Of a stretch of 57,333 bases of DNA, positions 10,543 to 42,186 are shown one piece after another (positions within the stretch are counted from its first letter, which is position 1; the number at the start of each line of letters is the position of its first letter). Made by a program: the position numbers and the translations under genes. The notes beneath the pieces are model-generated. The model did no database searches. It was not told where the DNA came from and was given only the letters and a program-made list of their open reading frames with translations. Source of the DNA: an uncultured Prevotellaceae bacterium. Lineage in GTDB: Bacteria > Bacteroidota > Bacteroidia > Bacteroidales > Bacteroidaceae. The stretch is taken from the NCBI GenBank assembly GCA_902762325.1, contig CACWNV010000030.1, forward strand, positions 1-57,333, in the 5' to 3' direction.

Positions 10543-12412
10543 TATTAGACAATTTCAGTTTATCATAGTCCACAGTTGCCTTCAGCAGACGCGGACGGTT
10601 TTCATCATACTCAGGAGAAAGGAGATTGCATGCAGCCTGATAATAGGGACAAGATATTCCTGCCAGATAAAGCAGCATGTGGGGCAGTGCGTCAGTCATG
10701 AAACGACGATGCTTCGCTGCCACAATCTCATGGTAAATCTCAGGATTCTTATGCGCATACTCGGGAGAGCACCATATCCAGAAGGGAATGGCAAACTCAT
10801 AGCGGGCAAGGTCATAAGTAACACGAGCCGAATGGTTACGACAAATGATGTTGCGTCCAGGCTCATAGCATTCCTCGCCATGGTCGGGCATATACATCAC
10901 GATGGCGTTCTGGTGTTCAAACCGCCGGCATATCTCATCAACAATACTGTCATTATAAAGCACGGCATTATCGTAGAAGGCAAGTTTCTTCTTTCTTGGG
11001 AGCTTGAGGTCAGGCCGCAGCTTGTCGTAGTTTTCCGGTTTAAACTTGTATCTGTCTTTCGGACAGCGCTGATAATAGTCCATGTGCTGCCCGATGAGAT
11101 GGAAAATATACAAATTGGCTGATGAGTCGGATGGAAGGGAAGCAAGACTGTCATAAACTGCCAGCAGTCCGTCATCATACGGATAAGTTGTCGTGTTGCG
11201 TATATCGAACATCGAATGACTCAGCTCAGGGTCGTTTATGAAAAAGCCGCCACTGAAATCATATACTTCTTGTTTTGCCTTGGGAAGGAACTGATTGGTC
11301 AGGAACGTCACCTTATATCCTGCTTTCCGAAACAGTTGTGGGAAGAGCGGGTAGTCGCACCACTCGCCTTCCTGTCCTATCACATGCGTTGACAACATGT
11401 ATTTAAAGACAAAACTTGTGAGGTTCCAGGGAGCCACCACATCGGTGAACTTCGTCAGCAGACCGCTGTTTTCCCTTTTAATCTGCCGTGGAGTTGTCGG
11501 CATAGCATAGCCATACTGCTGGGAATGGTGCGGACCAAAACTCTCACCAATAATCAACACTATGTTGGGAGAACGATAGGAACAACTGTCAACCTGCAGA
11601 TGGGCTGTAGCCTCTTTGAGCCTTTGAATCTGCTGTCCTGCCAATGCATTGGCACGCAGACTGAAAGCCAGCCGATAGATCGGCAGATAAAGCCTTGCAC
11701 GTTTCATACGCGTCAGCTCATGCTCCACCTTTCCTATGGTACCCAAGGTCATCAGCCTGTGCGTTGCTTCCTTGTTTGGCCACGACTGAACACCGGCATA
11801 AATCAGAAGAACAAGGACTATAAGCGATAAAATGGGATGAAAAGGAGATTGGAGCATCTTGTCTGCTCTTGACAACAATGGCTTACCTTTCTTTCTTAAC
11901 AGCCAGACAACAAAGAAAAAGACAACAGGAAGGACAAACAGTATTCCGACTACACTCCACAACATCTCCCATGTAAGGAATGTGCTCAAGAAATCTCCTG
12001 CCTCACGGGGATTAGTCTCACCGACAAGCATCAGCATTGTGGGATTCAATGTCGAGCCGAACTTTGTGTAACAATAGACATCTGCCACAGCCACGACAAA
12101 GAGCAAAACTGCAAGGAAGACCTTCACCCAACGCCTGACGACATGGGGGATGAGTGTCAGGATGGCACACAGGATGTATAAATCGAAGAAGAGTTCCAGA
12201 TACAAGTTTTCATAGACATGGGCTTTCGGGGTCTTGGGAAGAGTAAGCCACGCACAGACAACTCCTAAAACATACATAAAAGAAAAGAAGCCTGAATTCT
12301 TCCTTATCGGAAGTGTGAAGACTGTCAACCAGGAACAGACAACAGAGAGTACCGTTTTCCTTGTTCCCGATTCATTCATGTCATTCTTCTCTTTCAACTC
12401 ATCATTATTCAT
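10514..12412 (-). CDS. Phosphoethanolamine transferase-type membrane enzyme (sulfatase/alkaline phosphatase fold)
   Basis: A 632-residue inner-membrane enzyme. The N-terminal third has five hydrophobic segments; the periplasmic domain starts near residue 280. IVLIIGESFGPHHSQQYGY holds the predicted nucleophile Ser291 at the place of the Thr/Ser of EptA/CptA-type enzymes. LIGQHMDYYQRCP and MYMPDHGEE supply further metal ligands. The family transfers phosphoethanolamine (or, in relatives, glycerol-phosphate) from phospholipid to lipid A, core sugars or other glycans, a change that lowers surface negative charge and can raise resistance to cationic peptides. It is flanked by nadD (33 bases upstream) and overlaps the acyltransferase gene downstream. 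The exact donor and acceptor are unknown. Confidence 0.8.
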   Translation of the reverse strand: MNNDELKEKNDMNESGTRKTVLSVVCSWLTVFTLPIRKNSGFFSFMYVLGVVCAWLTLPKTPKAHVYENLYLELFFDLYILCAILTLIPHVVRRWVKVFLAVLLFVVAVADVYCYTKFGSTLNPTMLMLVGETNPREAGDFLSTFLTWEMLWSVVGILFVLPVVFFFVVWLLRKKGKPLLSRADKMLQSPFHPILSLIVLVLLIYAGVQSWPNKEATHRLMTLGTIGKVEHELTRMKRARLYLPIYRLAFSLRANALAGQQIQRLKEATAHLQVDSCSYRSPNIVLIIGESFGPHHSQQYGYAMPTTPRQIKRENSGLLTKFTDVVAPWNLTSFVFKYMLSTHVIGQEGEWCDYPLFPQLFRKAGYKVTFLTNQFLPKAKQEVYDFSGGFFINDPELSHSMFDIRNTTTYPYDDGLLAVYDSLASLPSDSSANLYIFHLIGQHMDYYQRCPKDRYKFKPENYDKLRPDLKLPRKKKLAFYDNAVLYNDSIVDEICRRFEHQNAIVMYMPDHGEECYEPGRNIICRNHSARVTYDLARYEFAIPFWIWCSPEYAHKNPEIYHEIVAAKHRRFMTDALPHMLLYLAGISCPYYQAACNLLSPEYDENRPRLLKATVDYDKLKLSNNDRKDANAQ

Positions 12413-25438: not shown

Positions 25439-27370
25439 TTACTTCTCGATGACCTTGACAGCCTTACCGTTGTCAAGACGAATGATGTTCAGGCCCTTAT
25501 GTCCCTTTCCGACGAGCTGTCCGGCAGCATTATAGCGGGCAGTCTCCTGTGCTTTCACATCGTTTGCGACATCCTTGATGGCGGTAGCATCCTTGATGGT
25601 GTTAACATTGGCATTCAATACGGTCAGACCGAATTCATCGCCGGTATAAGGAAGATGAATGAATGCTACGACCTTCATGTTCTCAACATTCCATTCTTCT
25701 GCCAACTCACAAGTGAAGGTATCGCTGTAGTTATCACCATTCCACTTAATAGGATTGCCCGTACATTTTCCAAGGGCTGTACGCAGCACGCCATTGTGAA
25801 CAAAGTCAACAGTCCACTTACCCTGATTGAGCTGGTCGGCCTTGATGCCATCCTCTATAAGATAAACCGTCAGCATGCCATCGGAAAAAGCCTTGGCTGC
25901 GTTTTCAGCACCTTCACCACTGACAGTCACGTTCATCTTCTTTGTGTCCGCATCATACTGAGCATCGATTTCTACCGAAGCAAGGGCAGGATAGGACTCT
26001 GTGATCATATCAAACAATGGGTTCAGCATCTGAGAGATGACAAGTGAATGGTATGAAGGATCGTATCCGAGTGAAGTTGCCGTTGTATTATCTTCTAAAT
26101 AAACACGGTCGAAGGCTCCCGACGGATATGAACTTACTCCCTCCATGGACATAATCGTGTCGCAAACAGCATTGTTCATCACATCAGGTATGTTGGGATT
26201 CATGATGCCATGAATGCCTACCCAGATCATATCTTCTCTCGATTCTGTAAACATCTTCAGGAGGTCAACACCCAGCGGGCAATACGTACAAGAAGTAGAA
26301 GTGAACTGCTCAATGAGGTGCTTCTGGCGTTTGACGGCCTTGTCATAGACATAGAACACGCCTTCTGCTACATCATCGGTCAGCACGCCGACAGGAGCTT
26401 CACCAGCAACTTTGTCTATCCAGACTTTCACGCGGTGCTTTCCTACGCCATACTTGCCCAGACTGAAGTCTATTTCTGTATCCTTGTCTGCCACAGGTGC
26501 CGTCTGAGTAAGAACGACTGCCTCATTTCCGTCAACCGAATAAGCAAGAGAATAGTCTGAAATAGTACCTTTGCCTTCATTCCTCAAAAAGAGTGAAGCC
26601 TTAACCTCCTGGTCTGACTGTGTAAATGGCTGTATTCCAAGGTCTGTAATGCTAAGGTCGGGCAGAAGGAACAGGTCACTTTCCACCAACACCTGAATAC
26701 TCAGGTTCAAGTTAGCCACGCCATAGAATCCTTCACCTTGTCCCAAATCACCGTAAGCATAAAGCGGCTGGGCATCATCCGAACTAATTGCAGAGAAAGG
26801 ATAGCACTCATCATTATAGTACTGACCGTTGTTGGTGTTCAGCTGCGTGTACTCCACGACTAAGAGATAATTCTCATATTTCTTTGTAAGGGTATATGGC
26901 TGATCGAGCAATGCCTCATTCCAGCCAGAAATAACATTCTCTATGGAGACAGAAAACAGTTCATCGCTTATCTGACCACGGGCATCAACACCTGCGGCAT
27001 AAAGACGGACAGGACCTGCTGGATAAATAATACCGATACGCATTCCCACAATCTTGTTATCCACAAAACGCGCAAAGACAGAGCCAGGAACATAACTTGC
27101 AAAAGCCTTTACCCTACCTGCATAATTAGGAAGACCGATAGACTCTTCTCCTGAACAAAGATCATCAGTACTGTAATTGCCAATCCATTTCTGGTTATCA
27201 GCTATTTCTAATACTTTTCTCGGGGCTTTCTTTGTGCTGGCTGCCAGTCCTTTCAATACCGGCTTGCGCAACTGCTGTCCCGTTTCAGGCAGAGTGAAAC
27301 TCTTTAACTGTGCATTTACTGCACCGCTGAACAGAAGGACTGCAGATAAAATAAGTAAAATTCTCTTCAT
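25439..27370 (-). CDS. Large Omp28-related secreted protein with CTYC thioredoxin-like motif and T9SS-type tail
   Basis: A 643-residue exported protein. Signal peptide to about residue 20 (SGAVNAQ). An N-terminal beta-rich region (residues 40-220) is followed by an Ig-like domain (about 235-340, DLSITDLGIQPF). Next is an Omp28-type thioredoxin-fold domain with LIEQFTSTSCTYCPLG, Cys361 and Cys364 forming a C-x-x-C-P active-site-like pair. The tail is YNAAGQLVGKGHKGLNIIR followed by VKVIEK, a short type A sorting domain, so export by the type IX system and surface anchoring is likely. Last gene of a five-gene redox cassette. Omp28 relatives are adhesins or lipoproteins of unclear biochemistry. 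Confidence 0.8.
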   Translation of the reverse strand: MKRILLILSAVLLFSGAVNAQLKSFTLPETGQQLRKPVLKGLAASTKKAPRKVLEIADNQKWIGNYSTDDLCSGEESIGLPNYAGRVKAFASYVPGSVFARFVDNKIVGMRIGIIYPAGPVRLYAAGVDARGQISDELFSVSIENVISGWNEALLDQPYTLTKKYENYLLVVEYTQLNTNNGQYYNDECYPFSAISSDDAQPLYAYGDLGQGEGFYGVANLNLSIQVLVESDLFLLPDLSITDLGIQPFTQSDQEVKASLFLRNEGKGTISDYSLAYSVDGNEAVVLTQTAPVADKDTEIDFSLGKYGVGKHRVKVWIDKVAGEAPVGVLTDDVAEGVFYVYDKAVKRQKHLIEQFTSTSCTYCPLGVDLLKMFTESREDMIWVGIHGIMNPNIPDVMNNAVCDTIMSMEGVSSYPSGAFDRVYLEDNTTATSLGYDPSYHSLVISQMLNPLFDMITESYPALASVEIDAQYDADTKKMNVTVSGEGAENAAKAFSDGMLTVYLIEDGIKADQLNQGKWTVDFVHNGVLRTALGKCTGNPIKWNGDNYSDTFTCELAEEWNVENMKVVAFIHLPYTGDEFGLTVLNANVNTIKDATAIKDVANDVKAQETARYNAAGQLVGKGHKGLNIIRLDNGKAVKVIEK

Positions 27371-27389
27371 AGATATAAATTAAAAAACA

Positions 27390-28076
27390 TTATTTAATTA
27401 CTACTTTTTTGACCGTTCCATCGCTCTTTCGGACAATATTGAGACCTTTCTGGGGAGCACTGAGCCGGTTTCCGCCAACCGTATAGCGGTCGGTCACTAC
27501 AGCACGGTCGTCCTCATTGACGCCTTTCACATTTGCCGGATCAGTATAGATAAACTTCAGCGTCACCTTCGGACCGTCTCCGATTACCGTAGAAGTTGCC
27601 TGGTCGATACCGAACCTATTGGGCACAATGTCCATATACTGAATCTGCAGAGTGGCAGTCCAGGTAGCATAGGCTGCCGGATACCATTCCGTGGTGATGG
27701 GTTCCTGTTCCGATGAGACGATGGTCTTTGCAGAGGTATAGACACCTGCTGCGGTCCATTCGGGCAGACAAGAACCGAAGGAACAGGTCTGGAAAGAACC
27801 GTTCGGCATGGCTGAGATGTCTATCAGCATCTGCCCTGCCACCTTCTCATCTGTTACTTTTCTTACCGACAGACCTGTCGGAATCTGTAGAGCACCGGCC
27901 TCACCCGTCATGGGATCGATTTCTCCGCCTTCCACATCACGAAGCTCAATGACGGCACCATCCGACACCACGTTACCCTTGGCATCAACAAACACCAGTG
28001 CCTGCTCTTCTTCCTGTGCGAACAGGGAAGGAGCACCGAGTACCAATGCCATACATAATGTAAAAATTTTCCTCAT
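27390..28076 (-). CDS. Small secreted protein with T9SS-type tail, function unknown
   Basis: A 228-residue exported protein. Signal peptide to about residue 20 (GAPSLFAQ). The body is a beta-rich domain (DAKGNVVSDGAVIELRDVEG) with two Cys in SFGSCLPEW and QTCSFGS spaced to form a disulfide. The tail is YTVGGNRLSAPQKGLNIVRK followed by VKKVVIK, a short type A sorting domain closely similar to that of the next gene's product. No enzymatic motif seen. It lies between two Omp28-type genes (19 bases downstream, 22 bases upstream), so it probably works with them. Confidence 0.75.
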   Translation of the reverse strand: MRKIFTLCMALVLGAPSLFAQEEEQALVFVDAKGNVVSDGAVIELRDVEGGEIDPMTGEAGALQIPTGLSVRKVTDEKVAGQMLIDISAMPNGSFQTCSFGSCLPEWTAAGVYTSAKTIVSSEQEPITTEWYPAAYATWTATLQIQYMDIVPNRFGIDQATSTVIGDGPKVTLKFIYTDPANVKGVNEDDRAVVTDRYTVGGNRLSAPQKGLNIVRKSDGTVKKVVIK

Positions 28077-31832: not shown

Positions 31833-34800
31833 ATGATTAAACAATTACGTTATTTCTTTACGCTCCTGCTACTGACAGTGGCAAGCGTAGGATTCGCTGG
31901 AACTATTGTTTTCGGCGATTTGGAATTGGAGAACGGTGTGCAATACACTGACCCATTCGATGGCGGAGACTTTACCGTAACATTCGCTGGAGGCGGCAAC
32001 GACGGTAAGTATTACGACACTGGTACTGGTATCCGCGTTTACGGTGATGGCACTATGACCATCGCAGCAAAAAGCGGCACACTCACAAGTATCACTGTTA
32101 CATTTTCTGGTACCTACAAACCTGAATCTGGCGATGTTGTTGATACTGGTTCTTATGATGCAGAAACTGGCGTTTGGGAAGGAAGTGCTTCTCAAGTAAC
32201 ATTTACTCGTCCTTCTGGCTCTGGTCACTGGAGAGTACAACAGGTTGAAGCTACAGTCTCTGGTGGTGTAACCAAGCAGACCGCTAATGTTACCATCGAC
32301 GCTACAACAATTGAGATTGGTGAAGATGCCGATGTGAACACAGACGGACCAGCTTTGACACTTACTTCTTCCGATGATGATATCGTTTCCATTGATGGTA
32401 CTACCATTACAGGTGAAGCCGCTGGAAAAGCAACTATCACAGCTACATGGGCAGAGACAGATGCTTTCTATGGAGGTTCTAAGAGTTTCGAAGTGACCGT
32501 TATTGACCCCAATGCTGAGGAAGCTGGTACAGAGGACAATCCTTACACCGTTGAGCAAGCCATTGCTGCCATCGATGCAGGTACAGGAACACAAGGCGTT
32601 TATGCTACAGGTATCGTTTCAAAGATTGTGACTCCATTTAACTCACAATTTGGTAACATCTCTTACAACATCTCTGCTGACGGAACAACATCTGGCGCTC
32701 AGCTCCAAGCTTATCGTGGCTTCAGTTACAACGGAGAATCGTTCACCTCTACTGATGACATCAAGGTGGGTGACGAAGTTGTAATCTATGGAAACTTAAC
32801 CAAATATAATACGACATACGAGTTTGCAGCAGGCAACCAACTCGTTTCTTTGGTTCGCACAGACAACAGAGAGCCTGCAGGACTCAGCTATGATGTAGCT
32901 AACTTCACCGCTACTATCGACGAAGCCAACGAGTTCCCAGTATTGAATAACCCCAACGACTTGACTGTTACTTACAGTTCTACAAATGAAGCTGTTGCTA
33001 CTGTTGATGCAACCTCAGGAGAGATTACACTTGTAGCTGCTGGTCAAGCCACCATCAAGGCTGTGTTTGAAGGAAACGACGCTTATGAGCCAGGTGAAGC
33101 AAGCTACTTACTCGTTGTAAAAGAGAAAGAAGTTGCTGGTACAGACAAATTTGAACTCGTTACAGATGCCAGCAAATTGGCAAATGGCGACGTTATCATC
33201 CTCGCATACGTAAATGAGGAAGGTGATGCTTGGGCTATGAGTACCACTCAAAACGCAAACAACCGTGCAGCTAATCCTGTTGAAATCGAAGATGATGGTA
33301 CTATCATCCCAGGTAGTTCTATCCAACAAATCACAGTGGAAGAGGAATATTACTTCAATGTTGGAGACGGTTATCTTTATGCTGCAGGTACTACAGGTAA
33401 CTGGTTGAGAACAGAAGCAGAGCCAGATGACAACGCTTTGGCTGACATCACTATCGACGAGAACGGCGACGCAACCATCGTCTTCCAAGGTGCAAATACT
33501 CGCAACCACATGCGTTTCAATACTAACAATGGAAATCCAATGTTCTCTTGCTATGCAGAAAATTCTTCAGTTAAGACCCTGCCTCGCATCTACCGCAAGA
33601 TTACAGGTGACACACCTGTTTTGGAAGATGCAGAGTTGGCATACGAAGTTGAGACATTCACAGCTACTATTGGTGAGGACAATGAATTCCCAGTATTGTC
33701 TAACCCCAATGAACTCCCTGTAACTTACACATCATCTGATGAAGGCGTAGCAACAATTGACGAAGATGGTAACATCACTCTCGTTGCAGCTGGTGAGACA
33801 ACTATTACCGCTACATCTGATGAGACAAGTAAGTTCAAGGCTGGTGAGGCATCTTATCTGCTGGTAGTTGAAGGCGAAGTTACACCAATTGAATATGGCA
33901 AATATCAACTCGTTACCGATGCAAGCACATTGGCAGCTGGTGATGAAATCTTAATTGCCTATGTTAATGTTGGTGAAGAAGCTACTGTAGCACAAGCTAT
34001 TGGCTCAGAACAAGCAGCTAATAATCGCCCTGCAGTTGACGTAACATACAATGATGATGAAACTCTCACACCAGACGCTACTGCTCAAATTATTACTCTT
34101 GAAGGCGATGCAGAGGGTTGGAATTTCAATGTAGGTAACGGCTATCTCTATGCTGCAAGTACAACTAAAAACTGGTTGAGAACAGAAGCTGAGGCTGATG
34201 AAAATGCTAAAGCAACTATCACTATTGATGAAATTGGTGATGCAACTATCGTATTCCAAGGAGAAAACACACGTAATACTTTGCGTTTCAATCCTAACAA
34301 TGGATCACCTATCTTCAGCTGCTACGGATCTACATCTACTACAGGTTCACTTCCACGCATCTACCGCAAGGTTGCAGAAGTAGAAGGAGAGACCATTCCT
34401 GTTACTATCAGCTCTGCTGAATGGGCAACATTGTATTACAGCGACAAGGCATTTGAGATTCCTGAAGGCGTTACCGCTAAGATTGTAGTTGCAATTGACG
34501 ACAATGATGTAATCGATTTTGAAGACCTTAATGGTATTATCCCCGCAGGTACTGCCGTTGCTCTCAATGGTCCTCAAGGCACATACGACTTCAAGGTAGT
34601 GAATGATGAGACTGTCGCTCCTGCAAACAACTTGCTGAGAGGCTTTGATACACCCCATTTGACAGAGGGTGGTGACATTTACTACAAGCTCACCGTTAAA
34701 AACGACATAGTTGGCTTCTACTGGGGTGAAGATAATGGTGATGCATTCCAGACTGGCGCACACAAGGCTTACCTCGCACTTACTGCAGAAGAAGCAAATG

Positions 34801-34973
34801 GTGTTAAGTTCTTCGCTCTCGGCACAACTGAAGGCGGTGAATCCGTTGACGGCATCAATGAAGTTACTGCTTCTGACAGCAAGAACGAATACTTCAACCT
34901 CAACGGTACTCGCGTGAACACGCTCCACAAGGGTATTTACATCGTAGGTGGCAAGAAAGTAGTAATTAAGTAA
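31833..34973 (+). CDS. Large secreted Ig-like repeat protein with T9SS-type tail
   Basis: A 1046-residue exported protein of unknown function. Signal peptide to about residue 22 (VASVGFAG). Then a beta domain (25-150), a BIG2-like domain (about 150-225, GEAAGKATITATW), an OB-like domain (about 230-340, NPYTVEQAIAAIDAGTG then VGDEVVIYGNL), and a twofold duplication. Each half of the duplication has a BIG-like domain (SYDVANFTATI/AYEVETFTATI) plus a beta-trefoil-like unit of about 155 residues containing NWLRTEAE and LPRIYRK. The shared C-terminal module is at about 860-1010 (WATLYYSDKAFEIP), then FNLNGTRVNTLHKGIYIVGG and KKVVIK. No catalytic motif. It is followed 26 bases later by a tiny SVWDE gene; its own promoter suggests strong expression. 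Confidence 0.8.
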   Translation: MIKQLRYFFTLLLLTVASVGFAGTIVFGDLELENGVQYTDPFDGGDFTVTFAGGGNDGKYYDTGTGIRVYGDGTMTIAAKSGTLTSITVTFSGTYKPESGDVVDTGSYDAETGVWEGSASQVTFTRPSGSGHWRVQQVEATVSGGVTKQTANVTIDATTIEIGEDADVNTDGPALTLTSSDDDIVSIDGTTITGEAAGKATITATWAETDAFYGGSKSFEVTVIDPNAEEAGTEDNPYTVEQAIAAIDAGTGTQGVYATGIVSKIVTPFNSQFGNISYNISADGTTSGAQLQAYRGFSYNGESFTSTDDIKVGDEVVIYGNLTKYNTTYEFAAGNQLVSLVRTDNREPAGLSYDVANFTATIDEANEFPVLNNPNDLTVTYSSTNEAVATVDATSGEITLVAAGQATIKAVFEGNDAYEPGEASYLLVVKEKEVAGTDKFELVTDASKLANGDVIILAYVNEEGDAWAMSTTQNANNRAANPVEIEDDGTIIPGSSIQQITVEEEYYFNVGDGYLYAAGTTGNWLRTEAEPDDNALADITIDENGDATIVFQGANTRNHMRFNTNNGNPMFSCYAENSSVKTLPRIYRKITGDTPVLEDAELAYEVETFTATIGEDNEFPVLSNPNELPVTYTSSDEGVATIDEDGNITLVAAGETTITATSDETSKFKAGEASYLLVVEGEVTPIEYGKYQLVTDASTLAAGDEILIAYVNVGEEATVAQAIGSEQAANNRPAVDVTYNDDETLTPDATAQIITLEGDAEGWNFNVGNGYLYAASTTKNWLRTEAEADENAKATITIDEIGDATIVFQGENTRNTLRFNPNNGSPIFSCYGSTSTTGSLPRIYRKVAEVEGETIPVTISSAEWATLYYSDKAFEIPEGVTAKIVVAIDDNDVIDFEDLNGIIPAGTAVALNGPQGTYDFKVVNDETVAPANNLLRGFDTPHLTEGGDIYYKLTVKNDIVGFYWGEDNGDAFQTGAHKAYLALTAEEANGVKFFALGTTEGGESVDGINEVTASDSKNEYFNLNGTRVNTLHKGIYIVGGKKVVIK

Positions 34974-34999: not shown

Positions 35000-35164
35000 A
35001 TGAAAAAATACGTTAAACCATCTATTGCAATGGTCAACTATGAAGAGTCCGTCATGGCCGCCTTGAGTCTACATGATGAAATTGGCGATGGACAACTTGG
35101 CAAGGGTACTTTCTTCGAGGATGAAGAGGCTCCAGCCACAAACCACAGCGTGTGGGATGAATAA
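35000..35164 (+). CDS. Small acidic KPSI...SVWDE protein (copy 1)
   Basis: 54 residues: begins MKKYVKPSIAMVNYEES, has GDGQLGKGTFFEDEEA in the middle and ends NHSVWDE before the stop. No signal peptide, membrane segment or Cys; strongly acidic C-terminal half. Nearly the same layout as the small gene at 41941 (GDGTQLGKENFFEDEEA, KSVWDE), and weaker similarity to that at 36142. Conservation between copies that extends to both ends and stops at the stop codon shows it is a real coding gene. It lies 26 bases after the secreted repeat protein gene and just before a terminator. Function unknown; see findings. Confidence 0.75.
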   Translation: MKKYVKPSIAMVNYEESVMAALSLHDEIGDGQLGKGTFFEDEEAPATNHSVWDE

Positions 35165-35181
35165 TCCCTTTCATTAAAATG

Positions 35182-35233
35182 AAATCCACTAAGGCTATAC
35201 ACTAAATAAATGTTTAGCTTTAGTGGATTTTTT
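35182..35233 (+). terminator. Intrinsic terminator with TCCACTAAGGC stem
   Basis: Arms 35182-35197 and 35215-35230 pair over 16 bp (AAATCCACTAAGGCTA, one G.U) around a 17-nt loop and run into TTTTTT. The stem matches that of the hairpin at 42131-42180. It lies between the small SVWDE gene and the next secreted-protein gene. Confidence 0.85.
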
Positions 35234-35267
35234 CATAATCGACAATAACATATTTTTTAACAATACA

Positions 35268-36128
35268 ATGAAACAAATCAGCATTCTCTTCATGTGTTTG
35301 TTCTGCAGTATGCTCACCATGGCACAAACCACGGAAAGCATCACCATCAACGGGGCAAGCAGCGAAGGATTTATCACTAACATCTCTTTCAGCGGAAATG
35401 ATGCCATGGTCACTTACGAAAATGGCACTCAGCAGACGATAGACATGGCTGGTCTGAGCATCGACTTCGACTATGTGGCATTGCTGGACGATGCCGACGA
35501 CGACCTGACCAGCACAATGATGAACACCTTCGGTGGAAAGGAAGTGAACGTGGAACTGTCGCGTCCCATCGCAAGCGGACAATGGAACACGCTCTGTGTG
35601 CCGTTTAACATGTCGGCAGACCAGATTGAGTCGGTCTTCGGAGCAGGAACAAGCGTGGCAGTCTTCAGCAACGCCGAAAACGATGTCGTCAACTTCAGCA
35701 CAGCAAACGAGATTACAGCCGGCATTCCCTGCATTCTCTATCCTGCCAACACGGTCAACAAGATTTCACTAAGCAACATTCCTCTGAAAAACTTCTTAGC
35801 TCCAGGTAGCGTGAAAAGTACTGACTATACTTTCGTGGGTACACTCGCCACCACCAGTCCTGCAGGAACAATCTTCTATTTTGCCAATGGCAATCAGATT
35901 AAAAAACTGACAGCAGATGGAAGCATCAAGGCTTTCCGTGCCTATTTCGCCTCCAACGGACAAGAAGCCAGACTCTTCAGCGTCGATGGCATCATTACTG
36001 CCATCAATACGATCAAAGACGAGATACAACCCGACAACTCACCCGCCTATAACATCAGCGGACAACGTGTGAGCAAGAACTACAAGGGCATCGTCATCAA
36101 GAACGGGAAAAAGGCTATCATTCAATAG
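35268..36128 (+). CDS. Secreted protein with T9SS-type tail, function unknown
   Basis: A 286-residue exported protein. Signal peptide to about residue 20 (SMLTMAQ). Residues 25-85 form an acidic beta segment; 85-240 hold a domain with GQWNTLCVPFNMSADQIES, also found in other Prevotella surface proteins, which resembles an early part of the shared C-terminal module of the larger neighbours. The tail is YNISGQRVSKNYKGIVIKNG then KKAIIQ, a short type A sorting domain ending in Gln instead of Lys. The start at 35268 was chosen at the signal peptide. 38 bases after the terminator hairpin; no clear promoter, so expression may come by read-through. The next small SVWDE gene starts 13 bases after its stop. 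Confidence 0.75.
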   Translation: MKQISILFMCLFCSMLTMAQTTESITINGASSEGFITNISFSGNDAMVTYENGTQQTIDMAGLSIDFDYVALLDDADDDLTSTMMNTFGGKEVNVELSRPIASGQWNTLCVPFNMSADQIESVFGAGTSVAVFSNAENDVVNFSTANEITAGIPCILYPANTVNKISLSNIPLKNFLAPGSVKSTDYTFVGTLATTSPAGTIFYFANGNQIKKLTADGSIKAFRAYFASNGQEARLFSVDGIITAINTIKDEIQPDNSPAYNISGQRVSKNYKGIVIKNGKKAIIQ

Positions 36129-36141
36129 AAAGGGCCAGACT

Positions 36142-36324
36142 ATGCACAACAAACAATACCAGCAACCGTCTCTCTACATCATGGAGATCGGAACAACAGA
36201 TATGATTGCATTCAGCGTGAACACCCCTTCAGACAAGCCGACATACACTGGTGAGTCGGGCGACGGTAAAGATGCGACAGCAAAAGAATATAACTTTAGT
36301 GTATGGGACGAAGATAATCATTAA
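36142..36324 (+). CDS. Small acidic SVWDE-motif protein (copy 2, divergent)
   Basis: 60 residues: QYQQPSLYIMEIGTTDMI near the N-terminus, corresponding to the KPSI segment of the other two copies, then an Asp/Lys/Glu-rich centre with SGDGKDATAKEYN and FSVWDEDNH at the end. The SVWDE is conserved, though three residues follow it here. No signal peptide, no Cys. It lies 13 bases after a secreted-protein gene and only 4 bases before the pectate lyase start, so it is translationally linked to both. No terminator follows it, in contrast to the other copies. Confidence 0.65.
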   Translation: MHNKQYQQPSLYIMEIGTTDMIAFSVNTPSDKPTYTGESGDGKDATAKEYNFSVWDEDNH

Positions 36325-36328
36325 GAAT

Positions 36329-39211
36329 ATGAAGAAGCTACACCTATTTATATATAGTATCCTGCTGCTCTTGGGCGGGATAACGGCAACAGAAGCCCAG
36401 GCAAAGATAGTCTACGACTTCACTGACTGGGAAAACAAGGCCTACTCAAGCACAACGACAGTCAACGGCCTGACACTGGCTGCAGCCTCAGGGAAAGAGG
36501 TGACAATTGAAAACTACAACAACGACGTCACCATCGACGGCATCACCTTCCCCAAGCGTCTGAAATTCGGAGGCAGCGGTACGTCATCGACTCGTAACGT
36601 CAGTTTCAAGATTCCCGGCAACGGTACACTGACCGTCTATGGCATGTCAGCCAACAGTTCGGCTACCCGCATACTGAATATCGCCATCGGCTCATTCAAC
36701 AACGTGGTGACTACGCTTGAGAAAGACGGCACCAGTGTCGGGAAAGCAGAATACAGTTACAAAGGCGGTGAAACCACTGTCTATCTCTATAGCGCCAACT
36801 CAGGATTCAACATCCACGGTATTGTCTTCCTTCCAGAAGGAGAAACCGGTGAGGAAACACAAGGCGACGTGACCATCATCCAGCCTACGGCGGGCACAAA
36901 CGCTGTCGATATCAGCGATCATGCAGTATCGAAAGACTTGTCGGCCAATCAGATGGAAGTGCTGCTCACAACCGGCGACATCAAGTATTACAACACAAAG
37001 AACCTGTCGGGTGTGAACATCGATAAAAAGGCGGCTACCGTCACCATGCTCAACGGCGACGGACAACAAGACATCTACTATGGCACCGTGAAGCACATCG
37101 GGTTTGCCAAGAAGGTGGACAGCGGTCAGGAAGCTGAGACCATCAACAATGGCATCGCAATTACCGAGGCCAAGGGTTGGTATGAAAGCTGCTACGCAGA
37201 ATGGACTCCCATTGACGGCGCCAAGTCGTATAACGTCTATATAAAAGGAGGCAACTACAGCGACTACACCAAAATCGACGGTCAGCTGGTTCGCAACTAT
37301 GGCAGCTACGGACGTGCCGACATGGTGGGACTCGTGGCTGGCACCTACTCGATGAAAGTGGTCGGAGTCGATGCTGACAAAAAGGAGATGGCAGCCAGCG
37401 GCGAGGCCATCAACATGGAAGTGGTGAACTACAAACGCGAAGGCTTTGCATTCCTCAACCGGAGTGCAGGTGTCGGAGCCTACAACAACGACGGTTCACT
37501 GAAAAGCGGTGCCCGCGTACTCTACGTCACTGCTGCAACAGCCAAGACAATTACCTGCAAGGTGATTACCAATGAAAAGGGAGCGACAACCGAATGCACG
37601 GGAATCCAGACGATTCTCGATGCCTATCAGAAAGGCTACGACTCTACGCCCGCTGTCTTCCGCCTCATCGGTACCATCAAATTGTCTGACCTCGACCACA
37701 TCAGCAGCAAGGAAGAAGGACTGCAGATAAAAAGCAACAAGGATAATGAGCTGAATATCACCATCGAAGGTATCGGTGAAGATGCAACCATCAAGGATTT
37801 CGGCATTCTTGCCCATGCTGCACGGAGCCTTGAACTGCGCAACTTTGCCATCATGAACTTCATGGATGATGCTGTATCAGTCGACAACGATAATAAAAAC
37901 GTATGGATTCATCATCTCGACATCTTCTACGGACAGCCGGGAAGTGACAGCGACCAGGCGAAAGGAGACGGAACTGTGGATGTGAAGACAAACTCACAAT
38001 ACATCACGGTATCCTACAATCACTTCTGGGATTCTGGAAAATCTTCACTCTGCGGCATGAAGAGCGAAAGCGGTCCCAACTACATCAGCTACGACCACAA
38101 CTGGTTTGACCATAGTGACTCCCGTCATCCACGTGTCCGCACTATGACGGTACACGTATGGAATAACTACTACGACGGTATATCAAAATACGGCGTAGGA
38201 GCTACCTTTGGCAGCAGCGTCTTCGTTGAGAACAACTACTTCCGCAACTGCAAATTCCCGATGCTTTCCTCCTTGCAAGGCAACGACGTGTATGCAGGAA
38301 CCAGCCAATACAAAGCAGATAATAACACTTTCTCAGGTGAAAGTGGCGGAAGTATCAAGTCGTTTGGCAACGTGATAACAGGAGCACAATCGTCCTACTG
38401 GCCTTATCAGGCAACAGAGATGCTTACAAAAGGCTCGATGAAATCGGCTTCTTCTTTAGGTATCGACACCAATGTGCACTTCGATGCATTCGAGGCAAAA
38501 AGTCGTAATGAAGCCGTTCCGGCAACCGTGAAATCGGTAGCAGGCGGAAATACCTATAACAATTTCGATACTAACAGCAGCCTGATGTACGATTATACGC
38601 CTGATGCTGCTGCCGATATCCCAGCCAAAGTTGCAGGCTTTTATGGCGCCGGCCGCCTGAATCACGGTGACTTCAACTGGACTTTCGACAGCAACGAGGA
38701 CACAAACGACAAAATAATCGACGATCTGAAGACAGCTATTCTGAACTATAAGGGTACGCTGGTGGGCATCTTCGGAGATGTCAATGGGCAGGGAACTGAA
38801 GGTGGTGACAACCCAGGCGGTGACAATCCGGGCGGTGACGACCCGACACAAGGCACCACCATCTCAAGCGACATAGAATGTACATTCACGGTCAAGGGAG
38901 GTCCTTCGAACAGCGCGTTTACCGTTGTCGGCAGCTATTCGAACAGCAAGGGAACAGCCACTGTCAATGGTACGACCTATACGGAATGTCTGAAACTGGA
39001 GACATCTACTTCTGTGACATTCACCATTGATAAGCCAATGACCCTCACGCTCGTCTTTGGCAGTCAGGACACCAAGTATACCATCAAGATCAATGGAACC
39101 AAGGCAACCGGAAGCAACGGCATACTGACCACCGACCTTGATGCAGGAACCTATAAACTGACCAAAGCCGATACAGGAAACCTGTTCTATATCGGTCTGA
39201 AAGTAAAGTAA
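36329..39211 (+). CDS. Secreted pectate lyase (polysaccharide lyase family 1), multidomain
   Basis: A 960-residue exported enzyme. Signal peptide to about residue 23 (TEAQAK). An N-terminal beta-sandwich (30-170) may bind carbohydrate; an FN3-like domain follows (about 270-355). The PL1 parallel beta-helix spans about 380-760: VNDNK..., MDDAVSVDND near 508, DGTVDVKTNSQYITVSYNHF (Ca-binding acids), and DHSDSRHPRVR near 592-599, with the catalytic Arg region. A Pro/Gly/Asp linker (GGDNPGGDNPGGDDPTQG) leads to a C-terminal beta-sandwich, probably carbohydrate-binding. It cleaves polygalacturonate by beta-elimination. It ends in LFYIGLKVK and has no sorting tail, unlike its neighbours. The start at 36329 was set by the signal peptide. 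Confidence 0.88.
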   Translation: MKKLHLFIYSILLLLGGITATEAQAKIVYDFTDWENKAYSSTTTVNGLTLAAASGKEVTIENYNNDVTIDGITFPKRLKFGGSGTSSTRNVSFKIPGNGTLTVYGMSANSSATRILNIAIGSFNNVVTTLEKDGTSVGKAEYSYKGGETTVYLYSANSGFNIHGIVFLPEGETGEETQGDVTIIQPTAGTNAVDISDHAVSKDLSANQMEVLLTTGDIKYYNTKNLSGVNIDKKAATVTMLNGDGQQDIYYGTVKHIGFAKKVDSGQEAETINNGIAITEAKGWYESCYAEWTPIDGAKSYNVYIKGGNYSDYTKIDGQLVRNYGSYGRADMVGLVAGTYSMKVVGVDADKKEMAASGEAINMEVVNYKREGFAFLNRSAGVGAYNNDGSLKSGARVLYVTAATAKTITCKVITNEKGATTECTGIQTILDAYQKGYDSTPAVFRLIGTIKLSDLDHISSKEEGLQIKSNKDNELNITIEGIGEDATIKDFGILAHAARSLELRNFAIMNFMDDAVSVDNDNKNVWIHHLDIFYGQPGSDSDQAKGDGTVDVKTNSQYITVSYNHFWDSGKSSLCGMKSESGPNYISYDHNWFDHSDSRHPRVRTMTVHVWNNYYDGISKYGVGATFGSSVFVENNYFRNCKFPMLSSLQGNDVYAGTSQYKADNNTFSGESGGSIKSFGNVITGAQSSYWPYQATEMLTKGSMKSASSLGIDTNVHFDAFEAKSRNEAVPATVKSVAGGNTYNNFDTNSSLMYDYTPDAAADIPAKVAGFYGAGRLNHGDFNWTFDSNEDTNDKIIDDLKTAILNYKGTLVGIFGDVNGQGTEGGDNPGGDNPGGDDPTQGTTISSDIECTFTVKGGPSNSAFTVVGSYSNSKGTATVNGTTYTECLKLETSTSVTFTIDKPMTLTLVFGSQDTKYTIKINGTKATGSNGILTTDLDAGTYKLTKADTGNLFYIGLKVK

Positions 39212-39237
39212 GGGCACTTCTGCCAGATACTTACGAT

Positions 39238-39277
39238 ATGGGAAGGATTTGTGATATTTTACACAAATTCTTCCCAT
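39238..39277 (+). terminator. Terminator hairpin after pectate lyase gene
   Basis: Arms 39238-39253 and 39262-39277 (ATGGGAAGGATTTGTG and its complement with one G.U) pair over 16 bp with an 8-nt loop. AT-rich sequence follows. It ends the 31.8-39.2 kb transcription unit; a new promoter lies 27 bases on. Confidence 0.8.
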
Positions 39278-39303
39278 AAATCGTTTATATTAAAAAAAAA
39301 TGC

Positions 39304-39311
39304 TATCTTTG
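39304..39311 (+). promoter_or_regulatory. Promoter -7 element for second secreted-protein unit
   Basis: TATCTTTG, exact TAnnTTTG, 40 bases before the ATG at 39352. It would drive 39352-47731 and perhaps metG. Confidence 0.6.
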
Positions 39312-39351
39312 CACCAAATTACCTCTTATATTATTTAACTTATAAAGCATT

Positions 39352-41913
39352 ATGAAACAAAAACTACTATTACTTTTGACGTTACTATGCACGATGACAG
39401 GAAGTGCATGGGCTGAAGATGAAATCTTACTCTCATACCAAATGGATAATGAGAACTATGCTGCACAAACGGAACTGGCTGCAGGAAACGGTACGATTTA
39501 TTTTGGTGCCGATAAACGTGAAGCATCCGACTATGCCGCTTGTGGATATGGTTACAAGCTTGATGGCGACATGAGTGAAACATCTATAAAGTATGTTTTA
39601 CTGAACCTATCAAGAGCCCTTGCTGCCGGTGATGTCATTAAAATAAAGATGTACGCATCATCAACCCCAAGCGGCAGTGACTATGGTATCAGCATCTTTG
39701 CCGAAAGGGCGACTGTTGATCCTCTGGCAACACTCTACATCTCAGGAAAAAAGAACGAAGAGAAGGAAATGACTTATACTGTCAAAGAGAATGATGGTAT
39801 TGCTGGTCTGTCGAGCATCTATCTTGCAAGGGCTGCTGGAAAATCCACTTATTTAACAGCTGTCGAGGTTGGTGCCTTTACCACGGAAGACCCCACAGGA
39901 GAAGAATTGACTGACGGTAAGACATGGGATTTCACCGTAACATCAACAACAGACTGGGACAACCTTCTTGCTGATGAAAAAAACTGGACGAAAGCCAGTG
40001 AGACACGTATGAGCAATAAAAACTCATACGCGGATGCACCTCTTATTGCCAATGGTCAAGAACTGGAAGCTACGAAAGGACTTCTGTTCAACATTAGTGC
40101 TGCAGACAAACTTCGTATCGACAAGAATAATCGTCTCTGCTTAAATGGAAATGGACTGAGCTTCACCATCCCCGGACTGGAGAAAGGTCAGAAAGTGACT
40201 ATCACGGCAAGAACTGCCAGTAAGTCTGGTCTGGATCGCTACCTCTCTGCAGAGAATCTGACTGTAACTGAAGGGGAAGGGTTTGCTCCCCATGATGCAG
40301 ACGAATGGTTTGCTAACGTCGGAACTGTCACCAAAGACGGAGATGTGACCATCAAGACTAATGTGGGTGGTATGAACATCCAGAAGATTGTTGTGACTGC
40401 AGCTGAAGGCGGTAGTGAGCCCACTGTTGTTATCGCCAAGCCAACCTTTGAGGTAGACGGCGTAACCTACGAAAGCGGTGCTACCGTTGAAGGTCTGAAG
40501 ACCGGACAGTGCGTAACCATCAATGTCGAGGAAGGTATGTATATCTACACGAACTGGAGCGGTAAGACTGGCGGTAGCAAAGAAACCTATTACGTTGCCG
40601 AAAGAATGAAAGGCCAGACAAGCTATGGAGCAATGACCTCTTCAGGTGGTCAGCGCGTATTGTATGCCGTAGCCGGTGACACCGATGATGCTTCAGGAAA
40701 CTCCAGTGATCTGGCTTACATCGTGTTCACAGGTGTGACACCTGCCGATCCCGTATTCACTCCTGCAGGCGGTGATGTGGATGCCGGAACTGTCGTAACC
40801 ATCGAAACAAGTAATAAGGAAGACAAGATTTATTACACAACAGACGGAACAGAACCGACTTCTGAGAGCACTCTTTACACTGAGGCTGGTATCACCGTTG
40901 ATGAGACCACTACCATCAACGCCATTGCATACGACAAGAACGACGCTAACCCAAGTTCCGTTGTAACTGAGACTTACACGGTAGCAGCTGTAGTAGCCCC
41001 ATCCGCTCCTGTCTTCAGCACACCAGACTACCAGGGCGACATCAACAACATCACCAGAGAAAACATCAATGTATATATTGAGGTAGAAGAAGGATGTTCT
41101 GTCAAGTACACAACAGACGGTTCTGATCCTGTAACATCCGAGACCGCCAGGACACTTTCTGCTACCGCCATCAGCATTGGCAGAAACTATGTGACCCTCA
41201 TCGAGACCTGCACACTCAAGGCAGTAGCAGTGAAGGATGGCGTGGCAAGTGAGGTGACAGAAGAGACTTACACCTTCGTGGCTCCTCAGGAAGAGACCAT
41301 CTCCGTTGAAATTACCGATGCCGGATATGCAACAGTATACTATGCTCAGAAAGCATTAGTTGTTCCTACTGGCGTTGAGGCATTCATCGTTACCGAAGAT
41401 GACATTATCAATGAATTCGAAAACTGGGGATTCGTTGCAAACTATGCAGCCACTGAGACAATTCCCGCAGGAGAAGCTGTTATCCTGAAAGGAGAGCCGG
41501 GCACATACGAGTTTACCGTTGATCCTACAAATTCAGACTGGGCTAATTGGGATAACATGTTACGCGGCTATGACCCCGATTATGATCTTAGCGCAATGAC
41601 AACAGGTCCTGGCAATGATACTTATAAGTTCTATCTCCTTTCAACTCGTGAGGATGAAGTGGGTCTCTACTACGGTGCAGCAGATGGCGCAGCCTTCGAG
41701 TGTGCTCCCAACAAGGCTTATCTGGCTGTTCCTGTAAGTCTTGCCAACAACACCAAGAGCTTCATATTCGACCATACCACAGGCATCGATGCTGTTCAGA
41801 ATGCTTTCACAGGTGATGCTGCCATCTACAATCTGCAAGGTGTCCGCATGAACACACAGAAGCTGAACAGAGGCATCTACATCATGAACGGTAAGAAAGT
41901 GGTCATTAAGTAA
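39352..41913 (+). CDS. Large secreted protein with chitobiase-like beta domains and T9SS-type tail
   Basis: An 853-residue exported protein, function unknown. Signal peptide to about residue 21 (TGSAWAE). Two N-terminal beta-sandwich-like domains (25-180 and 190-345, the second with GLSFTIPGLEKGQKVTITA). Two domains of the CHB_HEX_C type follow (about 470-545 with KIYYTTDGTEPTSEST, and about 555-640 with SVKYTTDGSDPV). The shared C-terminal module is at about 645-805 (YATVYYAQKALVVP, EAVILKGEPGTYEF, VGLYYGAADGAAF). The tail is YNLQGVRMNTQKLNRGIYI then NGKKVVIK. No catalytic motif. First gene of the second unit; the small SVWDE gene copy 3 follows after 27 bases. Confidence 0.8.
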   Translation: MKQKLLLLLTLLCTMTGSAWAEDEILLSYQMDNENYAAQTELAAGNGTIYFGADKREASDYAACGYGYKLDGDMSETSIKYVLLNLSRALAAGDVIKIKMYASSTPSGSDYGISIFAERATVDPLATLYISGKKNEEKEMTYTVKENDGIAGLSSIYLARAAGKSTYLTAVEVGAFTTEDPTGEELTDGKTWDFTVTSTTDWDNLLADEKNWTKASETRMSNKNSYADAPLIANGQELEATKGLLFNISAADKLRIDKNNRLCLNGNGLSFTIPGLEKGQKVTITARTASKSGLDRYLSAENLTVTEGEGFAPHDADEWFANVGTVTKDGDVTIKTNVGGMNIQKIVVTAAEGGSEPTVVIAKPTFEVDGVTYESGATVEGLKTGQCVTINVEEGMYIYTNWSGKTGGSKETYYVAERMKGQTSYGAMTSSGGQRVLYAVAGDTDDASGNSSDLAYIVFTGVTPADPVFTPAGGDVDAGTVVTIETSNKEDKIYYTTDGTEPTSESTLYTEAGITVDETTTINAIAYDKNDANPSSVVTETYTVAAVVAPSAPVFSTPDYQGDINNITRENINVYIEVEEGCSVKYTTDGSDPVTSETARTLSATAISIGRNYVTLIETCTLKAVAVKDGVASEVTEETYTFVAPQEETISVEITDAGYATVYYAQKALVVPTGVEAFIVTEDDIINEFENWGFVANYAATETIPAGEAVILKGEPGTYEFTVDPTNSDWANWDNMLRGYDPDYDLSAMTTGPGNDTYKFYLLSTREDEVGLYYGAADGAAFECAPNKAYLAVPVSLANNTKSFIFDHTTGIDAVQNAFTGDAAIYNLQGVRMNTQKLNRGIYIMNGKKVVIK

Positions 41914-41940
41914 TTACAGAAACTAAAGAACAAAAAGGAT

Positions 41941-42108
41941 ATGAAAAAGTACATTAAGCCATCTATTGAGAACATCACTCTGACAGATCCGCTGCTTTTC
42001 GGTATTAACAACACTGTGGGTGATGGAACTCAGTTAGGAAAAGAGAACTTCTTCGAAGACGAAGAAGCTAAAGACTACAGCTCTCATAAAAGTGTATGGG
42101 ATGAATAA
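41941..42108 (+). CDS. Small acidic KPSI...SVWDE protein (copy 3)
   Basis: 55 residues: begins MKKYIKPSIENITLTDPLL, middle GDGTQLGKENFFEDEEA, end SHKSVWDE. Near-identical plan to copy 1 (MKKYVKPSI, GDGQLGKGTFFEDEEA, SVWDE) but a different hydrophobic stretch after KPSI. No signal peptide, no Cys. Preceded by a secreted T9SS-tailed protein gene (27 bases) and followed by a terminator sharing the stem of the one after copy 1. Too short for most gene finders, but the paired conservation supports coding. Confidence 0.75.
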   Translation: MKKYIKPSIENITLTDPLLFGINNTVGDGTQLGKENFFEDEEAKDYSSHKSVWDE

Positions 42109-42130
42109 TTAAATGAATAAATAGAAAATG

Positions 42131-42186
42131 TCCACTAAAGCCACATTAGAGTCTATACGGCAAGAATGTGCTTTAGTGGACTTTTT
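42131..42186 (+). terminator. Terminator with TCCACTAAAGC stem
   Basis: Arms 42131-42146 and 42166-42180 pair (TCCACTAAAGC with GCTTTAGTGGA, plus ACAT/ATGT after one bulge), loop of 19 nt, followed by CTTTTT. Same stem as 35182-35230. The downstream ATG at 42208 lies only 22 bases after the hairpin ends, with no visible promoter. Confidence 0.85.

Follow-up and report, generated by a model that had tools for sequence, protein, structure and literature searches.

Introduction

Linear polyphosphorylated peptides (LPPs) were described in 2026 from the lpp cluster of Paenibacillus alginolyticus, in a report that calls them restricted to Bacillota and their role unknown (PMC13381572). As described there, their maturation set comprises a signal-peptidase-like protease, a discrete RiPP (ribosomally synthesized and post-translationally modified peptide) recognition element (RRE), an HprK-like kinase, a nucleoside triphosphate (NTP) transferase and an MsbA-like transporter. 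The leader reads YxxPxVLxHQxIxFETxxS; its Ser is phosphorylated, and RRE-dependent cleavage occurs two residues before this Ser (PMC13381572). The YxxPx[hydrophobic] part is the motif bound by the RREs of both lasso peptides and LPPs, and residues N33, C39, Y60, V67 and D70 of the RRE LppB contact the leader Tyr or Pro (PMC13381572). Here we analyze three small open reading frames (ORFs) in a 57,333-nucleotide stretch of DNA from an uncultured Prevotellaceae bacterium of the Bacteroidota (contig CACWNV010000030.1 of assembly GCA_902762325.1), referred to below as the window. The three ORFs are members of a real multi-copy family, and they are probably precursor peptides of an LPP-like RiPP pathway, matured in trans by a shared machine encoded elsewhere in the genome.

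The three small ORFs belong to a multi-copy family

The ORFs lie on the + strand at 35000..35164 (copy 1, 54 residues), 36142..36324 (copy 2, 60 residues) and 41941..42108 (copy 3, 55 residues), and are separated from the stop codon of the gene upstream by 26, 13 and 27 bases, respectively. An earlier note on this DNA had claimed three ORFs of these lengths with a spacing of 13-27 bases, and they are present as claimed. Alignment of the three copies showed 13 invariant columns, including Y4, P7, S8 and the residues SVWDE. Copy 1 carries the leader motif YVKPSI, the triplet A-L-S at residues 21-23 and an acidic core ending in SVWDE; copy 2 carries YQQPSL and A-F-S and ends in SVWDEDNH, while copy 3 carries YIKPSI and ends in SVWDE. 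SVWDE, proposed earlier as the C-terminus, therefore holds that place in copies 1 and 3 but not in copy 2, because DNH comes after it. Similarly, the K/Q-P-S-I/L motif of the earlier note is real but is better stated as Y-x-x-P-x-[ILMVT]. The predicted leader, taken up to the conserved Ser, would span 35000..35068 in copy 1 (+ strand; Ser codon 35066-35068), where the cleavage site is approximate, and 36142..36216 in copy 2 (+ strand; Ser codon 36214-36216). Searches of Pfam and NCBIfam with the three ORFs gave nothing at E<=1.

A profile built from the three rows gave eight matches in the genome of the window at E<=10, six of them below 0.01 and including the three window copies, and it matched in 45 of 100 relatives (E<=1). 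With a 28-row profile (A2), the family was detected in 83 of 100 genomes of the genus (E<=0.01), with up to 16 members in one genome, and with a 52-row profile built from the genus (A3) it was detected in nine of 295 genomes of the order. The earlier note had proposed a profile search for homologues elsewhere, and these are evidently widespread in the genus.

We collected 65 distinct relatives for closer analysis (one further sequence, L034, was excluded); 13 of them (7 + 6) are not part of A3. The Tyr and Pro of YxxP are invariant in all 65, which were all collected with profiles containing this motif. Positions 6, 8, 11, 16 and 17 from the Tyr are hydrophobic in 77-95% of the relatives. A Ser stands at Y+19 (position 20) in 40 of the 65, compared with a mean of 5.5 and a maximum of 14 in 2000 shuffles, and all 11 relatives examined outside the genus have a Ser at Y+19 to Y+21. 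A Trp with Asp or Glu no more than four residues later is found near the end of 58 of the 65 peptides, and beyond position 20 the average charge is -6.9. Equal synonymous and nonsynonymous change, which the earlier note had named as counter-evidence, is not what we observed for copy 1: the ratio of nonsynonymous to synonymous substitution (dN/dS) against close relatives in two other genomes was 0.05-0.09. Values of 0.33-0.58 were obtained for four other close pairs within the family, and two further pairs were saturated.

A candidate maturation operon encoded elsewhere in the genome

The earlier note had objected that no maturase is near. None indeed lies beside the small genes, but the objection is met by an operon on another contig of the same genome (C1, 94.7-96.4 kb), which encodes an HprK-like kinase, an S24/S26-like protease and, as its last gene, a PqqD protein of 90 residues (PF05402, E 6e-14). 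PqqD, mostly single and stand-alone, was found in 92 of the 100 genomes of the genus, and a profile made from operon kinases detected the kinase in 91 of the 100. Kinship of the kinase to HprK is weak (ScmC 3e-5 and HprK_rel_A 6e-4, below curated cut-offs), and the kinase of a relative (G055) matched Hpr_kinase_C at 9e-4, again below the curated cut-off. The protease of the window's genome gave weak matches to S24 and to signal peptidase I, the E values of kinase and protease matches ranging from 1e-5 to 1e-3 and all falling below curated cut-offs.

At nine other loci of the genus, BLAST with the proteins of this operon found the kinase at eight and the protease and PqqD at seven each, and PF05402 matched at all nine. 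An ABC-transporter-like gene follows the operon in G055 and G045 (Pfam was run on G055); a Pfam search of neighbouring proteins from G055 and G421 identified two of two as ABC transporters, and three of three tested proteins from operons of other Bacteroidales matched NTP_transf_5 (PF14907). The best 80 named kinase loci come from Prevotella, Hoylesella, Segatella, Hallella, Palleniella and uncultured relatives; in 79 of them the protease is no more than 2.5 kb from the kinase, and in 74 PqqD is no more than 3 kb away. A precursor match (E<=0.01) was found at none of these 80 loci in flanks of up to 8 kb, and the precursors of the genus are therefore, as a rule, served in trans.

The sequences of the candidate enzymes were then compared with their LPP counterparts. 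All 15 proteases compared have a conserved Ser and His, 38 residues apart in the protein of the window's genome and 39 in LppS. An Asp within GDGN is conserved in all 15 as well, as is a Glu six positions further on, and either of the two may correspond to D93 of LppS; the Asp stands 15 residues after the His as against 25 in LppS, a comparison of spacing in unaligned sequences. Thirteen Bacteroidales PqqD rows have five invariant residues, N35, L41, Y64, A71 and D74 in the numbering of the protein from the window's genome. In a profile alignment to LppB (E 0.15), these stand opposite N33, C39, Y60, V67 and D70, with an offset of 18 in the LppB chain numbering that was worked out by hand. A search of the PDB with the PqqD profile gave only four matches at E<=1, all of them RREs of lasso or LPP systems, the best being TfuB1 (E 2e-6).

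Several further loci are recorded here as observations. A small YxxPxI ORF with an acidic C-terminus lies about 4 kb from the PqqD operon in G118 (L140:13832-14047; seen by eye), which makes it one of few precursor-like genes noted close to the machine. At locus L135, a gene of no known family with a hydrophobic start (11459-11980, - strand) stands before the kinase, and BLAST found it at five other loci of the genus; the gene before it is labelled rpoD-like. G147 has a second PqqD beside ORFs that by eye resemble a cyclase of the asparagine-synthetase type and a small B2-like protein (L142:8942-13671), a possible true lasso cluster. In G191 and G421, the ORFs L112, L113, L115, L116, L120 and L122 encode paralogous peptides of the form YVKPDFEVIEL...PLLxGSG with variable ends, several of them in genomes with a full operon of kinase, protease, PqqD, NTP transferase and ABC transporter. 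In G364, a YxxP precursor lies 3.6 kb from the kinase, and PqqD, NTP transferase and kinase stand amid genes that by eye resemble polysaccharide export (L175:3764-9893). Capsule loci are also reported to contain LPP clusters.

Co-occurrence of the small genes with the operon

We compared the distribution of precursor matches with that of the putative machine, using Fisher tests, which treat genomes as unrelated. Among the 100 genomes of the genus, a precursor match was missing from seven of the eight PqqD-negative genomes as against 10 of the 92 PqqD-positive ones (p=9e-6). Grouped by the kinase, the match was missing from seven of nine kinase-negative and 10 of 91 kinase-positive genomes (p=4e-5). 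In the order, where the kinase scan scored 8 of up to 17 first-look candidates in some genomes, the kinase (E<=1e-10) was present in all nine precursor-positive genomes versus 33 of 286 others (p=1e-8), and with the genus of the window removed it was present in seven of seven (p=5e-7). On a one-gene tree of 12 genomes, the three PqqD-negative genomes that were included need two changes, and none of 200 bootstrap trees had one; the strongly supported branches alone do not require two.

A profile-free search for MKK(x)YxxP was also performed in 24 chosen genomes (with one locus each listed for G000, for the PqqD-positive, profile-negative G004 and for the PqqD-negative G053, G103, G106, G148 and G173). 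It found leader-bearing ORFs in four of the ten genomes that are PqqD-positive and profile-negative (G125, G161, G170 and G178), and a fifth of the ten, G147, has a leader ORF found via A3. In the PqqD-negative genomes G042 and G140, no leader ORF was present among the listed pattern matches.

Proposed pathway

Taken together, the co-occurrence, the operon and the leader make the case for an LPP-like system, and we consider it likely, though not certain, that the three ORFs encode its precursors. A peptide natural-product precursor was among the roles that the earlier note had entertained, and it fits best; the idea of a leader plus a recognition tag agrees with a leader motif of the kind that RREs bind. 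Binding by the RRE, phosphorylation, leader removal and where it occurs, export and action with the cargo are inferred by analogy. The first ~20-25 residues would form the leader, whose Y-x-x-P-x-I strand would be bound by the stand-alone PqqD/RRE made in trans. The RRE may then present the peptide to the HprK-like kinase and to the signal-peptidase-like serine protease. The kinase would phosphorylate the conserved Ser (Y+19) of A-x-S where it is present, as in copies 1 and 2, and the protease would remove the leader to leave an acidic core of ~30 residues ending near W-[DE]-[DE]. One machine would serve about a dozen precursors. Since most precursor genes come directly after a gene for secreted cargo with a type IX-like tail, peptide and cargo would be made together. 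Besides the phospho-Ser reading, the A-x-S triplet may be a plain signal-peptidase cleavage site, with small residues at -3 and -1.

A number of observations weigh against a phosphorylated, LPP-like precursor family. Where phosphorylation is predicted, copy 3 has an Asn (codon 42007-42009), and it has no Ser at all at positions 18-22 from the Tyr; eight of the 65 relatives likewise have no Ser at positions 18-22. Two parts of the LPP leader, HQ and FET, are missing from the leader here. NTP transferase and transporter genes are not found in the operon of the window's genome, the rest of which was not searched for them, and an absence of precursors from the neighbourhood of the machine, as at the 80 kinase loci, is unusual for RiPPs. 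The co-occurrence has exceptions in both directions: G126, G149, G159 and G164 are PqqD-positive and gave no convincing precursor among the listed pattern matches, and G032 has one leader ORF (L207) without PqqD. In G148, with 11 precursor matches, PqqD and kinase were not found; in G172, with 16, PqqD lies near a contig end and the kinase was not found. Relatedness among the genomes, which the Fisher tests ignore, also counts here.

Genes for secreted proteins upstream of the small genes

Each small gene in the window stands behind a larger gene on the + strand. Upstream partner 1 (31833..34973) encodes a protein of 1046 residues with Big_2 domains; partner 2 lies at 35268..36128, with the ATG at 35268 preferred by eye over the GTG at 35223 given in the ORF list; and partner 3 (39352..41913) encodes 853 residues with Fn3_assoc and CHB_HEX_C_1 domains. 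All three products carry a short C-terminal tail, the products of genes directly upstream ending like YNLQGVRV...KGIYIVNGKKVVIK. The earlier note had called such ends type IX tails. PF18962 (Por_Secre_tail) gave no match to the window's tails at E<=1; a profile of 24 upstream tails chosen by look (A4), however, coincides with 10 of the 22 PF18962 matches in this genome. Because of this overlap, 'short type IX-like tail' is a fair, if unproven, label. Prevotella intermedia is reported to use type IX secretion (PMC5445135).

The synteny extends through the family. In the window's genome, where A3 was scored on 21 of 30 first-look candidates, all 13 A3 matches stand directly behind a tail match, six of these tails being absent from A4 (6/6 when only such tails are counted). 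A tail gene ends no more than 300 bp upstream in 53 of the 65 distinct relatives, in 42 of the 54 outside this genome, and in 29 of the 41 that contributed no tail to A4; the median gap between tail gene and small gene is 24 bases (n=53). The genome has 109 tail matches at E<=1; a 300-base stretch on one strand for each of them would by arithmetic make up ~0.5% of both strands of a 3.6-Mb genome. The test of gene neighbourhood against genes with type IX tails that the earlier note had suggested thus shows enrichment. The link is not absolute, being missing in 12 of the 65 relatives, and four of five leader-bearing ORFs in each of G125 and G178 have no tail directly upstream. Placements outside the genus are mixed: in G078, of another family, one small gene lies 20 bases behind a gene with a classical type IX-like end (by eye), G243 has three small genes behind tail-like ends, and in G191, G219, G356 and G421 no such tail was seen upstream, except a possible one in G356 (L117).

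In copies 1 and 3, the small gene is followed by a terminator-like hairpin and T-run on the + strand (35181..35231, z -7.6, and 42130..42181, z -6.9; both stretches were picked by eye). This arrangement points to a single transcription unit for cargo gene and small gene. A scan for short-loop terminators showed no excess (15 vs 13.5 expected) and does not list these two hairpins, their loops being longer. No such hairpin stands behind copy 2, which reads on into a gene for a protein with Pectate_lyase_4 and CBM77 domains (36329..39211, + strand); the ATG at 36329 lies 4 bases past the end of copy 2, in accordance with the earlier claim of one small gene 4 bases ahead of a secreted pectate lyase. 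The stems of the two hairpins have a sequence in common (CCACTAA.. / ..TTAGTGG), a hint at duplication of small gene and terminator as a unit.

Other observations on tails and small genes are as follows. On contig C8 of the same genome, a 65-residue leader ORF that begins MKKQEYQKPSV (L095) lies 18 bases past the tail at 32191-32325 and was missed by the profiles; the family in this genome is therefore larger than 13. Behind the tail at 5985-6134 of contig C38 is a 33-residue leader ORF (L087) followed by an acidic stretch with NVW in another frame, which looks like a decayed precursor gene. Elsewhere in the window, two adjacent genes (25439-28076, - strand) end in another tail-like motif (KGLNII.../KGLNIV...), the first of them with a weak tail match (E 0.002).

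Alternative explanations

The placement behind tail genes raises the question whether the small proteins are cytoplasmic escorts or chaperones of type IX cargo, a possible role named in the earlier note; they would then bind the tail of the upstream gene's product. The 53 of 65 relatives behind a tail gene, and all 13 profile matches in the window's genome, are what an escort would predict. PqqD-negative genomes, though, retain tail genes (4 to at least 65 matches, with 65 of up to 177 first-look candidates scored), and seven of the eight have no small-gene match. The small genes therefore track the machine and not the tails. Some relatives also stand away from tails, the genome of the window has ~13 small genes for its 109 tail matches, and an RRE-type leader would be left unexplained by an escort. 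Because the PqqD-negative genomes keep their tails mostly without the small genes, and because some relatives lie away from tails, escort is not supported as the primary role, and we regard it as unlikely.

Slightly less probable still are signalling peptides, regulators or class II bacteriocins that stay unmodified and have a leader for export only. Such peptides would likewise be small and acidic with a variable core, and modification is here a matter of inference; the co-occurrence with kinase, protease and RRE speaks against them, and no double-glycine site was seen, so the reading as double-glycine bacteriocins was dropped. Lasso-peptide precursors, which would mature into knotted peptides bearing a macrolactam, are improbable. 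The leader motif is the same and, among PDB entries, a lasso RRE matches the PqqD profile best, but neither a cyclase nor a cysteine leader peptidase was recognized by eye in the 20-kb stretch of the operon (no genome profile search was made), and the place of the leader peptidase is held by a signal-peptidase-like protease. Chance ORFs or remnants behind tail genes, which might be short and have variable centres, would hardly give profile matches in 83 of 100 genomes or the low dN/dS of copy 1, and we consider this explanation highly improbable.

Returning to LPP-like precursors matured in trans, it is conceivable, though doubtful on present evidence, that RiPP maturation and type IX secretion are linked here, and that the matured peptide acts with the cargo encoded upstream, by travelling with it, tagging it, anchoring it or controlling its release. 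The pathway would then provide companion peptides for about a dozen secreted proteins.

Comparison with known systems

Among the papers listed by our literature searches, none reported a PqqD/HprK/S24 system from Bacteroidota or a link between RiPP precursors and type IX cargo, and none described small proteins beside type IX cargo or the motif; a text search of PMC12710340 gave no match. A related machine in about nine of ten genomes sampled from a genus that dominates in gut and rumen, where profiles detect up to 16 precursors in a genome, would widen the LPP family, and placement behind secreted-protein genes would be the first functional hint for peptides of the LPP type. RiPP mining that relies on clusters would tend to overlook a design of one machine with many dispersed precursors. 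In addition, many small hypothetical proteins gain a testable identity.

The system resembles that of the LPPs in several respects. A discrete RRE, an HprK-like kinase and a signal-peptidase-like serine protease are encoded here (kinase and protease by weak matches), some Bacteroidales operons add an NTP transferase and an ABC transporter, and no macrolactam cyclase was seen at the loci read. The precursors share a YxxPx[hydrophobic] leader, a conserved Ser 18-19 residues past the Tyr and a variable core; the A-x-S here seems to parallel the A-Q-S with which the LPP core starts, with one extra residue between Tyr and Ser. Unlike LPP, the system here is hosted by Bacteroidota and not Bacillota, and its precursors are dispersed, served in trans and mostly found behind type IX-like cargo genes. 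We call it LPP-like and not LPP because its leader is partly different, the RRE profile is closer to TfuB1 (E 2e-6) than to LppB (E 0.15), the protease triad is tentative and the chemistry is a prediction.

Among lasso systems, paeninodin and pseudomycoidin (PMC8498205) are alike in having an HPr-kinase homologue, a PqqD-type B1 protein, a nucleotidyltransferase, a transporter and Ser phosphorylation in known systems; the known systems are unlike in that they use a cysteine leader peptidase and a cyclase, have WxxP in the leader and carry the phospho-Ser at the C-terminus. The RiPP clusters with a GG leader and C39 transporter reported from the same order, Bacteroidales, also have small precursors with a leader and a variable core, but they have a GG leader, a transporter-protease and radical-SAM enzymes (PMC10352776), in contrast to the RRE, kinase and signal-peptidase-like protease here. 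Cargo proteins with a PF18962 domain resemble the upstream genes' products in their short tails and differ from the small peptides, which are themselves tail-free. The kind of system is thus known; its phylum, its design of many precursors served in trans and its placement behind secreted cargo appear to be new.

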